Assembly: GCA_028286245.1 (NCBI GenBank)
Contig: JAQBRY010000001.1
Coordinates: 124,001 to 188,000, forward strand
Origin: Candidatus Saccharimonadota bacterium
GTDB taxonomy: Bacteria > Patescibacteriota > Saccharimonadia > Saccharimonadales > UBA4665
Direction: 5' to 3'
Length of the DNA stretch: 64,000 nt
Made by a program: the position numbers and the translations under genes. The notes beneath the pieces are model-generated. The model was not told where the DNA came from. It did not search any database and saw only the letters and a list, made by a program, of their open reading frames with translations. Shown here one piece after another: positions 1,441-23,890 of the stretch (position 1 is its first letter; every line of letters begins with the position of its first letter).

Positions 1441-2049
1441 CTATTTCTTTTTTCGGTCAAAGTAGGCGAGTTGGCGTCGCAGCTGATCAAGCCGAATAAT
1501 CTTTGGCTCAAATACTTTGAGTAGGCTGGAATACTGCCAGTTTGGCGTTAAGATGTTAGCAAGCTTACCCTGTTGCTCAAGATACTCAGCCAGGCTAAAA
1601 AAGTCGCCGTCACCAGATACAATAATGGCCTGCGCATAATGAGGCATTTCTTTCATGGCATAGAGCACGAGCTCGGCATCAACATTGCCTTTAATAAACG
1701 ACTTATCCTTATCTTTTTCTTCGGCTGGTTTGTCGGTGCTAGCGGGATTTACACCTGTCGCAGGGGTATCATTATGTGCCTGAGCCTGCACCGATACGTC
1801 AACCGTTGGCTTGAGTACTACGAGGTAGCCCAGTTCGTGCATGTGCTCATACAGCGATTCGTTTTCGCTCATATAGCCAATAAATAAATAGGCGTGCGTA
1901 ACGTTGTGGGTGGTACGCAAATATTCACGGAATTTCCGCCAGTCCATTTTCCAACCCATGCGTTGAATGCCCAGGTTAAGGTTCTGGCTATCTACAAAAG
2001 CGTAGGTAACTGCTTCTGGTTTCTTTTTTCTTCTAAAACGGGTGGCCAT
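1441..2049 (-). CDS. NYN-domain (LabA/DUF88-like) putative RNase
   Basis: PIN-like NYN domain protein. Conserved acidic positions are visible in YAFVDSQNLNLG near the N-terminus, in GNVDAELVLYAM, and in IIVSGDGDFFSLAEYL, matching the metal-binding acidic cluster of NYN nucleases, which are known or predicted RNases. The N-terminus is very basic (RFRRKKK), consistent with nucleic-acid binding. I chose the ATG at 2049, where an AGGAGA lies about 14 bases upstream. An alternative ATG at 2079 overlaps the signal peptidase stop as ATGA and would add ten residues by translational coupling. A 105-base gap follows on the left, with nothing recognisable in it. Confidence 0.82.
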   Translation of the reverse strand: MATRFRRKKKPEAVTYAFVDSQNLNLGIQRMGWKMDWRKFREYLRTTHNVTHAYLFIGYMSENESLYEHMHELGYLVVLKPTVDVSVQAQAHNDTPATGVNPASTDKPAEEKDKDKSFIKGNVDAELVLYAMKEMPHYAQAIIVSGDGDFFSLAEYLEQQGKLANILTPNWQYSSLLKVFEPKIIRLDQLRRQLAYFDRKKK

Positions 2050-2075
2050 ATAGTGGTGTCTATCTCCTGGCTCAA

Positions 2076-2609
2076 TCATACACTATTACGGGCCGAGGGG
2101 ATTAATTGATAGACCGGCCTTCGATAGTGCGCGGCCAATTTTTGAACCTCACTCGTGCACAGCAGTACGGCTGGAGTGTAAACAAGCACAGCTATACTAA
2201 TTGGATGGCGGAAAAGGTCTAACCCCTTCCCGGCCAGCGGCAGCACGGCACTGACGGGTCCTTTTAACTCGGCTATCGGTACCGCCGGGTCATTTGTTTG
2301 TAGATTATCACCTTTAGTTACTACCGTACGGGCCGACGCTGTTACCAACATAACCCTATGAGTGATTAACCGGCCATCAATAGGACTACGATAGCTTACA
2401 ATGTCGCCAACCGACGGGATGTAGTCCGGCACGTCACGGACAAAAACTGCGTCACCCCTTCGGATGAGCGGTGACATACTATCTGATTGTACCGTTAGTA
2501 CTGCACCATGACGTAATACATAGGCAGCAATCACTAGCGCCGTGACGACGACCGTGGCCGCCGTCACTAACACTAGAACCGCACTAACACGTCGCTGATC
2601 GTGGCCCAT
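2076..2609 (-). CDS. sipW: Signal peptidase I, SipW-like (S26B)
   Basis: Membrane signal peptidase of 177 residues with an N-terminal transmembrane segment (about 10-32). The nucleophile is Ser44 in VQSDSMSP and the general base position is His84 in LITHRVM, i.e. a Ser-His enzyme of the archaeal/SipW type rather than the Ser-Lys bacterial LepB type. Asp101/Asp107 in TKGDNLQTND fit the conserved C-terminal acidic region. A second hydrophobic segment lies near residue 135-150. It starts 6 bases after the TasA-like gene and is probably its dedicated processing enzyme. Confidence 0.88.
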   Translation of the reverse strand: MGHDQRRVSAVLVLVTAATVVVTALVIAAYVLRHGAVLTVQSDSMSPLIRRGDAVFVRDVPDYIPSVGDIVSYRSPIDGRLITHRVMLVTASARTVVTKGDNLQTNDPAVPIAELKGPVSAVLPLAGKGLDLFRHPISIAVLVYTPAVLLCTSEVQKLAAHYRRPVYQLIPSARNSV

Positions 2610-2615
2610 CGTAAT

Positions 2616-3194
2616 CTAACTCACCGCCGTGGCGTTAAATATAAAGTTAACATTACTAATGGTTGCGCTCGAGCCGTTTACGGAATCAATGTCGAGCTGT
2701 ACCTGCAGGCTGTAGTTTAAAACCTGGCCCGGTATCAGCCGCGCCACATTGGGCATGAGTACGCCACCGGCTTCACTGCCGTCCATTAGCTCCTTGAGGG
2801 TAAAGGTCATTGGTGTCCCTGACTCCGGTGTTAGGAGTACCTTTACCTTGGTAAGGTCAACGTTATCGGTGTTAGCCAGTGTGGGATTGGCACTAAGCTT
2901 AAGCATTACCGGGGTGGTACCATTATTTTTTAGGTAAATATTATAGCCAGTGGTAGGCGACGGCGCTCCACCAGGAATCAAGGCACCAAAACTAAAACCC
3001 TGCACCGTTCGCCCGTACACAGCGCCATTGGTGCTCAGCTGTAGATCCGCCGTGGCAGTTTGGATGGTATTCCCCTGCACAAGTGCCAACTGGCTTTGCA
3101 AGGCCGCATAGGTCACACCACTCACCAGCGCCGCGACAGCAACCACGACGGTCAGGGCCCGCATGAGCGGGTGGACAATAAACTTTTTCTTCAC
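2616..3194 (-). CDS. TasA/CalY-like secreted protein with SipW-type signal peptide
   Basis: Secreted protein of 192 residues. The N-terminus is basic, then hydrophobic (about 11-32), and ends in the GVTYAALQSQLAL region. The block after it, GNTIQTATADLQLSTNG, resembles the mature N-terminus of camelysin/TasA proteins, which are cleaved by SipW. The rest is predicted beta-rich. Translation starts at GTG, supported by AAGGAG seven bases upstream. The gene is directly followed by the SipW-like peptidase, and this pairing is the main argument for the assignment. In Firmicutes, TasA forms extracellular fibres; a fibre or surface-layer role here is inference. Confidence 0.75.
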   Translation of the reverse strand: MKKKFIVHPLMRALTVVVAVAALVSGVTYAALQSQLALVQGNTIQTATADLQLSTNGAVYGRTVQGFSFGALIPGGAPSPTTGYNIYLKNNGTTPVMLKLSANPTLANTDNVDLTKVKVLLTPESGTPMTFTLKELMDGSEAGGVLMPNVARLIPGQVLNYSLQVQLDIDSVNGSSATISNVNFIFNATAVS

Positions 3195-9436: not shown

Positions 9437-10129
9437 TCACACTCGAATGAAAGTATTTAAGGCTGTCTTGATGATAGTTGCAAGCTCGGGCAGTATGGCC
9501 GTGATTCCCTGCACTTGGTGCAAAATCTGCGGATCGTTAACGCCAAAGCAAAGGCGCAGGCACTTAATATGATTGGCACCCAGGCTGCCGGTTTCGCTGG
9601 CGTCAAAGGCCATGGCATCGTAATCAAAGCTATAGGTCTGATCCGGCGAAAGTTTTTCGCCGTTAATATCGGTAAACAAATTAGGCGTGTGGCCGCCGAG
9701 CTTTATGAGCTGACCCTCGAACCAAACGCGTATTAGATCAAGAGAGATATCGGGGTTATTAAGGGAAATAAACGCCCGCTCTAACAGATCAAAGTATTCC
9801 GGTTCCGGTTCGTCTTCGGTAGCCCGGTGCAACTGCTTTATGAGATCATAGCCGAGCATTGTCCGGTTAACATCTTTGACTATATCGCCGTAATGCCGGA
9901 GTAAGCGGGCGCTCACTAGAGTACCGAGCTCTCCCCTGCCCTTTATGTAGCTGATGTCGCTAACGCTAAATAATTCTATGCCGCCGGCTGATTTACTTTT
10001 GATGCGCCTGACGCCGCGGGCCATCATCCGCAGTTTGCCGTGATCGGGCGTGAGGAGCGTAATAATTTTGTCAGCCTCACCGTAATCCGTTCGGCTGAGG
10101 ATAATACCTTTGGTCTGAATATGATTCAT
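9437..10129 (-). CDS. recO: DNA repair protein RecO
   Basis: RecO loads RecA onto SSB-coated single-stranded DNA in the RecFOR pathway. The N-terminal OB fold is clear (TKGIILSRTDYGEADKIITL, then DHGKLRMMARGVRR), followed by the helical domain (MLGYDLIKQLHRATEDEPEP, then IRVWFEGQLIKLGGHTPNL). The zinc-binding cysteine cluster of some RecO proteins is not obvious. Length is 230 residues, normal. The ATG overlaps the stop of the upstream receiver gene as ATGA, so recO is the third gene of a coupled operon with a degenerate sensor and receiver. Confidence 0.9.
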   Translation of the reverse strand: MNHIQTKGIILSRTDYGEADKIITLLTPDHGKLRMMARGVRRIKSKSAGGIELFSVSDISYIKGRGELGTLVSARLLRHYGDIVKDVNRTMLGYDLIKQLHRATEDEPEPEYFDLLERAFISLNNPDISLDLIRVWFEGQLIKLGGHTPNLFTDINGEKLSPDQTYSFDYDAMAFDASETGSLGANHIKCLRLCFGVNDPQILHQVQGITAILPELATIIKTALNTFIRV

Positions 10130-10509
10130 AGCGTGGCCGTATTTAGGAGCGTAACACTCCTAAGCAAGCTTGCCAGTGATGTTCGGGGCTTGTACAGATA
10201 GTCTTTTACGCCCAGTTCTTGGCGGAGCAGCTTACTGCTGCCATTAAATTCAGCTGGCGGCACCTGACTATGAATAATTACCGGCACGGCACGCCAGTCG
10301 TTATAGGATCTAAATTCGTATAAAAATTCTATGCCTGAATGTCCAATCAGTTGTAGCTCTACAATAACCGCATCCGGGCACTGCTCATCAGCCGCAAATA
10401 TTGCCGACTGAGCGCTGGCGCACATGGTTACCGTGTGACCATCAGCCAGCAAGGTCTGCCGATAGATATCAGCCAGCATGCGGTCGGGTTCTAAAAGAAT
10501 AATATGCAT
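10126..10509 (-). CDS. Receiver-like protein with Glu at the phosphorylation site
   Basis: Stand-alone 127-residue receiver (CheY) fold. By alignment to known receivers, the acidic pocket is LLEPD (residues 5-9), the switch Thr/Ser position is Ser in VIIHSQ, and the conserved Lys is in YLYKP. The phospho-acceptor Asp is replaced by Glu in DAVIVELQL (about residue 51). This should prevent normal phosphorylation and might mimic the phosphorylated state. There is no output domain. It shares one base with the upstream degenerate kinase gene (TGATG) and four with recO. Either a pseudo-receiver scaffold or a constitutively active adaptor is possible. Confidence 0.82.
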   Translation of the reverse strand: MHIILLEPDRMLADIYRQTLLADGHTVTMCASAQSAIFAADEQCPDAVIVELQLIGHSGIEFLYEFRSYNDWRAVPVIIHSQVPPAEFNGSSKLLRQELGVKDYLYKPRTSLASLLRSVTLLNTATL

Positions 10510-11219
10510 CAGATAAGCTGTAATTGATGATTTGTTTGCAAAACCGTGCCTAGGCCATACAGCCGGTTATGACGTGATACCTTGAGCTCCAGATTCATGG
10601 CCTTTAGGATGGCGTCGGCTACAAACACGCCAGCCCCGGCAGTGTGCGAAACGGCACCCAGCGGCTGACGGCTGGCGCCCACTAGTTTTCGGCCGTTCCG
10701 AAGCGCTTCGGCGGTGAGCTGTTCGGTTTCTGAGTACAAGCCGGCTACGATGCCATAACGGCAGCGATGCGCCGCCAACTGCAATTTGAGCTGGGGCACC
10801 TCTAGCGCCGGTAAGGCCTCTATGAGCGAGGCACCGAGGCTCACCAGCGCCGACTGGAGGCCATGCCGGTTGGCCATAACCGTGCTGTAGCGACCACCGA
10901 TGTGCAGTTCCAGGTCAACACCATAATTGCGAGCTAACGCTGTTAATTCCTGGCCGCTGTCGTACAATACCGACGAAACCGACACCGGCTCGAGTTGTAA
11001 GAGGTCTTGCTCTAAGTTGAGGCGTACGCCAAGCGCGTAGTTATCAATTAAACGTAGAGCCGCGTCAGCAGTTGACTGAATTCGTTCTAAATCGGCAGTG
11101 TTCGTGATCCGACCATGCTCGGCCTGGCGGGCAATCTGGAGTAAGGGAATTTTTAACTGTTCTGCAACGCTTAACAATAATTGTTGCGACAAAACCGGCG
11201 CTAATGAATCGCCAACCAT
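10509..11219 (-). CDS. Degenerate histidine-kinase-like protein
   Basis: A 236-residue soluble protein resembling the cytoplasmic part of a sensor kinase. The DHp-like helix (LSVAEQLKIPLLQIARQ, about 15-32) lines up with HisKA sequences of the form SHELRTPL but lacks the phospho-accepting His. The C-terminal half resembles an HATPase_c domain: NRHGLQSALVSLGASLIEAL sits where the N box would be but lacks its Asn, and the glycine-rich G boxes are poor. Kinase activity is therefore unlikely. It starts an operon with the Glu-type receiver and recO. An extended -10 (TGCTATACT) and AGAGGG ribosome binding site precede it. Confidence 0.7.
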   Translation of the reverse strand: MVGDSLAPVLSQQLLLSVAEQLKIPLLQIARQAEHGRITNTADLERIQSTADAALRLIDNYALGVRLNLEQDLLQLEPVSVSSVLYDSGQELTALARNYGVDLELHIGGRYSTVMANRHGLQSALVSLGASLIEALPALEVPQLKLQLAAHRCRYGIVAGLYSETEQLTAEALRNGRKLVGASRQPLGAVSHTAGAGVFVADAILKAMNLELKVSRHNRLYGLGTVLQTNHQLQLI

Positions 11220-23422: not shown

Positions 23423-23854
23423 TTAGCGTTCGAGGTGGTGCTTGATGCGCTCTACTACGTCGGCAATGACAACTTGGGATTTTACGAGATAATCGTCTAC
23501 GCCGAGGCTTTCGGCGCGGCTCTTGTCGCTTTCTTGGCTGAGGGCGGTGAGCATGATAATTTTGAGGTTAGTAGTCTCGGGGGTGTTGCGGAGGATGTCT
23601 AGGACGTCAAAGCCGCTGACTTTGGGCATCATAACATCGAGGAGTACGAGATCCGGGTGATAACTGAGGGCAGCGGCCAGGGCCTCTTCGCCGTTGGCGA
23701 CGCGACGGACTTCCAGGCCTTCGGCCTGCAGGCGCATTACATATACACTGGCAAGGGCGTCGTCGTCCTCTACGAGTAAGATTCTTTTAGGATGCTGGGG
23801 CGCATCACCTACGTGTGGTGCGGGGGGCGTTACTGGGGGTGTAGTGGGATCCAT
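23423..23854 (-). CDS. Response regulator receiver protein
   Basis: 143-residue protein with a Pro/Thr-rich N-terminal tail (PTTPPVTPPAPHV) and a single receiver domain. The phosphorylation apparatus is intact: acidic pocket LLVEDDDAL, phospho-acceptor Asp in DLVLLDVMMPK, Thr in IMLTALS, and Lys in DYLVKSQ. No output domain is present. I start at ATG 23854, seven bases after TACCAT of a promoter (23862-23890); the earlier in-frame starts overlap that promoter. Unlike the Glu-type receiver at 10126-10509, this one should be phosphorylatable. Confidence 0.85.
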   Translation of the reverse strand: MDPTTPPVTPPAPHVGDAPQHPKRILLVEDDDALASVYVMRLQAEGLEVRRVANGEEALAAALSYHPDLVLLDVMMPKVSGFDVLDILRNTPETTNLKIIMLTALSQESDKSRAESLGVDDYLVKSQVVIADVVERIKHHLER

Positions 23855-23861
23855 ACTGCTC

Positions 23862-23890
23862 ATGGTAGCGCATACGGCCAAATTGATCAA
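23862..23890 (-). promoter_or_regulatory. Receiver gene promoter, leaderless
   Basis: TTGATC, 17-base spacer, TACCAT on the minus strand; the ATG at 23854 is seven bases downstream. It decides the start of the receiver gene. Confidence 0.5.

Follow-up and report, generated by a model that had tools for sequence, protein, structure and literature searches.

A kinase-receiver pair encoded directly upstream of recO has lost its phosphorylation sites in most families of Saccharimonadales

In the order Saccharimonadales, the gene for the DNA repair protein RecO is preceded by genes for a histidine kinase-like protein and a single-domain receiver, and in most families of the order both proteins have lost the residues on which phosphotransfer depends. 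The residues are gone yet the pair is conserved, and the kinase-like protein ends in a peptide resembling those that bind the sliding clamp, which argues that the two proteins probably form a protein-binding module rather than a signal relay. Our overall explanation, a phosphate-free scaffold that is ancestrally linked to recO, may be tethered to the clamp and may act on RecO, is one in which we place evenly balanced confidence. The analysis started from a window of 64,000 nucleotides on contig JAQBRY010000001.1 of a Candidatus Saccharimonadota bacterium, for which a first-pass annotation had proposed a phosphotransfer-dead sensor and receiver coupled to recO.

Folds and lost residues of the two proteins

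All three genes lie on the minus strand. The kinase-like protein (10509..11219, 236 aa) comes first, followed by the receiver (10126..10509, 127 aa) and, as the third gene of the block, by recO (9437..10129, 230 aa), the product of which matches RecO_N (1.6e-21), RecO_C (4.3e-6) and TIGR00613 (7.5e-27) above the Pfam and NCBIfam cut-offs. As annotated before, the gene coordinates give overlaps of one base between the kinase-like gene and the receiver gene and of four bases (ATGA) between the receiver gene and recO.

Taken alone, the kinase-like protein has no match in Pfam or NCBIfam, while it is homologous to members of its own family that do carry HisKA and HATPase_c domains. An AF2 model built from 56 homologues (pLDDT 86.6) consists of a two-helix DHp hairpin and a CA domain, i.e., of a DHp-CA core only, and the best matches of this core among solved structures are HK853-RR468 complexes and DivL (4q20), with E values of about 1e-10 to 1e-8. 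The phospho-His is absent. In alignments of the scored loci its place in the H-box (SVAEQLKIP) is taken by Glu20 (codon 11160..11162, minus strand), and the Asn of the N-box that serves Mg-ATP binding is likewise lost (LVSLGASLI). The protein thus lacks both hallmarks of a functional histidine kinase and, with Glu at the His site of a retained fold that matches HK853 and DivL, it is a pseudo-histidine kinase. The first reading of this gene, which had pointed to a missing HisKA His and a poor HATPase domain, was correct.

The receiver scores 34.1 bits against the PF00072 cut-off of 30.2 (3.4e-8), and its AF2 model (pLDDT 96.8) has the canonical receiver fold and matches ordinary receivers, including FrzS structures. 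A functional receiver has a phosphorylatable Asp and an acidic metal site; here the former is replaced by Glu51 (codon 10357..10359, minus strand) and the metal-binding DD2 position by Pro8 (codon 10486..10488, minus strand), so that the protein is a pseudo-receiver. The conserved receiver residues Ser/Thr and Lys are still present. The Glu had been recognized before, and the loss of DD2, which had been overlooked, adds to it.

It had also been stated that an intact receiver is encoded elsewhere in the window, which is indeed the case (23423-23890), and the degeneration is accordingly specific to the recO locus. The genome as a whole gave 14 receiver and 13 HATPase matches, most of them at full strength, and the loss at the recO locus is therefore not a general one. 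The intact single-domain receiver adjoins pyrG. Receiver matches about 7-8 kb from recO were seen in several other genomes too, and this second receiver may thus be a long-standing neighbor.

Distribution of the block and of its states

With recO as the anchor, loci were gathered across the order and 100 further loci were read. The kinase-like protein was detected in 58 of 60 genomes of the order, and kinase, receiver and recO were found in the same order and on one strand in all 156 complete loci; the exceptions to a complete block were two contig ends and one locus with an unrecognized kinase. The most common spacing was a 4-base overlap (55 of 156 and, between receiver and recO, 77 of 156). 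The block is also present in sister orders of the same class, and the linkage to recO, the conservation of which had been named as a check on the original idea, is thereby well established. In one sister-order genome, a Nudix-like gene intervenes between receiver and recO (locus L160, 1374-1820). Elsewhere in the phylum, the block was absent from all 19 loci sampled outside the class. A contig titled Chloroflexi (L347) encodes a kinase that is 58% identical to the saccharibacterial family and probably stems from a mislabelled bin.

Of the 153 loci that were scored, His and Asp are both present in 35 and both absent from 102, while 14 have the Asp only and two have the His only, and the His is thus present at the H-box site in 37 of 153. 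The window locus belongs to the 102 in which neither phosphosite is retained, Glu being the usual replacement. Where the Asp is missing, Glu occupies its site in 103 of 108 loci, and Glu at both sites is the most common state in the order (80 loci). Neither this state nor the gene order is a matter of chance, given the frequency of the former and the unbroken arrangement of the latter in the 156 complete loci. An acidic DD2 is found in 33 of the 35 loci with His and Asp and in none of the remaining scored loci, and the position is Pro in 91 of the 102 loci with neither phosphosite. The N-box Asn is retained in nearly all His-bearing loci. In short, His, Asn, Asp and DD2 co-segregate. The Fisher value (8e-21) takes no account of relatedness. 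On a RecO tree, at least eight changes are needed for the His and nine for the Asp; an independent-pairs test of His loss against Asp loss agrees in direction and is underpowered.

His and Asp are kept together in several deep branches and in one large family, to which, judging by named genomes, TM7i, Candidatus Saccharimonas and an oral TM7 taxon belong. In this family the N-box Asn and the acidic residue at the metal site are retained as well. The notion that the missing His and the Glu are conserved across Saccharibacteria therefore holds for most families and fails for these lineages, and since they keep His and Asp at the very same recO-linked locus, a genuine two-component system has been converted here, and the pair was no scaffold to begin with. 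Kinases of the sister orders comprise about 800-1,130 aa, mostly lack clear membrane segments and possess both His and Asn; GAF, PAS, HisKA and HATPase_c domains are present in the one that was examined by Pfam, and the accompanying receivers carry Asp and DD2. The sister orders thus retain what is apparently the ancestor, a soluble GAF/PAS histidine kinase of about 1,100 aa with an intact receiver, and within the order of the window organism the kinase has shrunk to about 240 aa. Genus g117 (L148, L158), nested in the otherwise intact family, is an independent repeat of the conversion: both sites were lost together, with His changed to Gln or Gly and Asp to Ser. In family f37 (L060, L063, L065, L069, L071 and relatives), Asp stands at the His site, the receiver Asp is kept and an acidic DD2 is absent, a state that is either intermediate or differently wired.

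Relation to RecO and the C-terminal tail

A scaffold or sensing module that possibly modulates RecO-dependent repair had originally been envisaged. The phosphotransfer-dead character, as judged by sequence, and the conserved linkage to recO stand, and the part concerning RecO has been weakened by family f20 (L241, L251), which has lost recO and keeps the pseudo-kinase upstream of glyS. This family also speaks against a dedicated RecO partner that falls together with recO. One of its genomes retains a receiver without the Asp and none was seen in the other, L251, where an unrelated frame of 365 aa (2028-3125) occupies the position expected for receiver and recO. recF was not detected above the cut-off in family f20. 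In a second family lacking recO, f131, we found no identifiable orthologue of the pseudo-kinase, only ordinary kinases. Covariation analysis yielded no convincing kinase-receiver or receiver-RecO contacts, its signal being dominated by lineage state. RecF is present alongside the module in most genomes, which rules out that the module replaces it.

A conserved phosphate-independent module that has nothing to do with RecO, with recO as an operon neighbor sharing its promoter, is accordingly an alternative that deserves serious weight, although we consider it the less probable course. It would readily account for family f20, where the loss of recO has left the pseudo-kinase in place at the same site before glyS, together with the receiver in one of the genomes, and for a C-terminal tail that is conserved in the absence of RecO or the receiver. 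It is harder to reconcile with an adjacency to recO that is unbroken in 156 complete loci and extends over several orders of the class, and with the predominance of stop/start overlaps, -4 between receiver and recO in 77 of 156.

The tail is the most conserved feature of the kinase-like protein and had escaped the first-pass annotation. Gln232 is the sole fully invariant column of the kinase alignment and starts a Q-phi-x-L-phi stretch, which reads QLQLI in the window protein (Q232-I236; 10512..10526, minus strand), QLSLL or QASLF in the intact family and QLPLL or QLSLF in sister orders. Practically every homologue, very degenerate ones included, has it at the C-terminus or close to it, and the 22 paralogous kinases examined in related genomes all lack it. 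The pseudo-kinases of family f20 end in QMALVESLS or QMTLVESLSRI. Since the tail outlasts the loss of recO and likewise that of the receiver, its partner is probably neither of these two proteins.

The published clamp-binding motif is Q-phi-x-[L/M]-[F/L], with Ile tolerated, and often forms a free C-terminus as in Pol II and Pol IV (PMC11139829). QLQLI fits this motif when Ile is admitted at the fifth position, as does the location at the extreme C-terminus. The tail most likely binds a third partner, for which, judging from this resemblance, the DnaN beta-clamp would be the leading candidate. The likeness to Pol II and Pol IV is one of motif only, since the kinase-like protein is neither a polymerase nor a repair enzyme and often has Val at position five. 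In the dead lineages, Val, which is not a canonical residue of the motif, is found there in 77 of 118 tails, and the strict motif is matched by 34 of 120 pseudo tails versus 37 of 47 intact tails. DnaE of the same genomes has a canonical GQxDLFG at the expected place; the DinB tails, tried as a second lineage-specific yardstick, contain no such motif.

AF2 renders residues 231-235 as a short helix, and the tail could therefore be structural. A purely structural role as the terminal element of the CA domain, with no partner bound, would also agree with its hydrophobic spacing, which is compatible with packing. We nevertheless find this unlikely, as Gln232 has stayed invariant while the CA fold itself diverged, and the tail is missing from paralogous kinases whose CA domains are intact.

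A phosphate-independent module and its relatives

Pseudo-histidine kinases are known to be kept as protein-interaction modules (PMC4211667, PMC12632262), and DivL, which acts in the CckA/DivK pathway, is both a known representative (PMC4211667) and a structural neighbor of the protein described here. The pseudo-kinase might therefore be thought to regulate other, intact two-component systems as a phosphatase or binding competitor, for which the 14 receiver and 13 HATPase matches in the window genome, mostly full strength, would offer ample targets. This is quite improbable in our view: the cognate receiver is dead in nearly every His-less locus, the 14 that keep the Asp lack an acidic DD2, and the invariant C-terminal tail would be left unexplained. 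DivL shares with the window protein the HisKA/HATPase fold with a replaced phospho-His, but is a large multi-domain protein with live partners, whereas the latter is a bare core with a dead receiver, a conserved tail and a linkage to recO.

That a two-component system is merely decaying locally before it disappears, the outcome named beforehand as refuting the original idea, can be dismissed as extremely improbable, for although signature residues are missing from both genes and f129-like lineages have kinases past Pfam recognition, the open reading frames are intact in nearly all loci across the order, the same replacements recur over many families, the dead pair and its linkage to recO are both conserved, and the dN/dS values against one congener (kinase 0.06, receiver 0.10, recO 0.09), rough as they are with dS near saturation, indicate purifying selection on both genes.

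Taken together, synteny shows that an ancestral histidine kinase of the soluble GAF/PAS type became fixed, along with a single-domain receiver, immediately ahead of recO in the class. Within the order that contains the window organism, the kinase was cut down to its DHp-CA core. In most families the His then gave way to Glu, the N-box Asn was lost, and the phospho-Asp was replaced by Glu and the metal-binding Asp by Pro. Purifying selection has kept the pair, probably as a phosphate-independent protein-binding module, in which the old DHp interface most likely still serves the pseudo-kinase for docking the pseudo-receiver and its C-terminal Q-phi-x-L-phi tail most likely contacts a third partner, with the DnaN beta-clamp as the foremost candidate. 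Where recO is present, translational coupling would match the supply of both proteins to that of RecO, and the module may conceivably place or restrain RecO-dependent loading of RecA at post-replication gaps. In its most specific form, this proposal has a former sensor kinase, bound to DnaN by its C-terminus, and its dead receiver partner jointly positioning RecO-dependent gap repair at the replisome, under a control by phosphorylation that was once exerted, perhaps still is in TM7i and relatives, and was later discarded in most families; we offer this form tentatively, as a conjecture that is clearly more likely to fail than to hold in all its parts.

Several known systems resemble parts of this arrangement. 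HK853-RR468 provides the best fold match for the kinase-like protein, next to which a matching receiver fold is likewise encoded; it transfers phosphate, whereas none of the four key residues that were checked is present in the window pair. Aspartate-less pseudo-receivers such as FrzS, ChxR, NblR and CmrT also combine the canonical fold with the absence of the phospho-Asp and DD2, but the window receiver differs from these in being a single domain without an output domain, in having a co-inactivated kinase as its operon partner, and in retaining Ser/Thr and Lys with Glu at the Asp site. How pseudo-receivers are switched has been called a mystery (PMC12632262). RecF of E. coli has been proposed as the DnaN-linked factor that targets RecFOR to gaps (PMC10287930). 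The module, which might conceivably act on RecO at such gaps, is unrelated to RecF in sequence and coexists with it in most genomes.

In the literature, as far as it was covered, we found no report of this block, of a co-inactivated cognate pair conserved over most of an order, or of such a kinase tail. The Southlakia Tn-seq paper mentions neither histidine kinases nor response regulators nor two-component systems in its main text, and the 13 matches to "reco" listed for it belong to words like recombination.

Individually, pseudo-kinases and pseudo-receivers have been described before and are rare, the His being missing from about 0.9% of HisKA domains and the Asp from about 2% of receivers (PMC12632262). 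Here, both partners of a fixed operon have lost their phosphosites together. The family with a cultured member has the live version, the sister orders have the full sensor and most of the order has the dead pair. Nature thus provides a series of stages in which the role of a two-component pair that no longer uses phosphate can be studied. Should the tail indeed bind the clamp, it would constitute a direct link between signaling proteins and the replisome in Patescibacteria.
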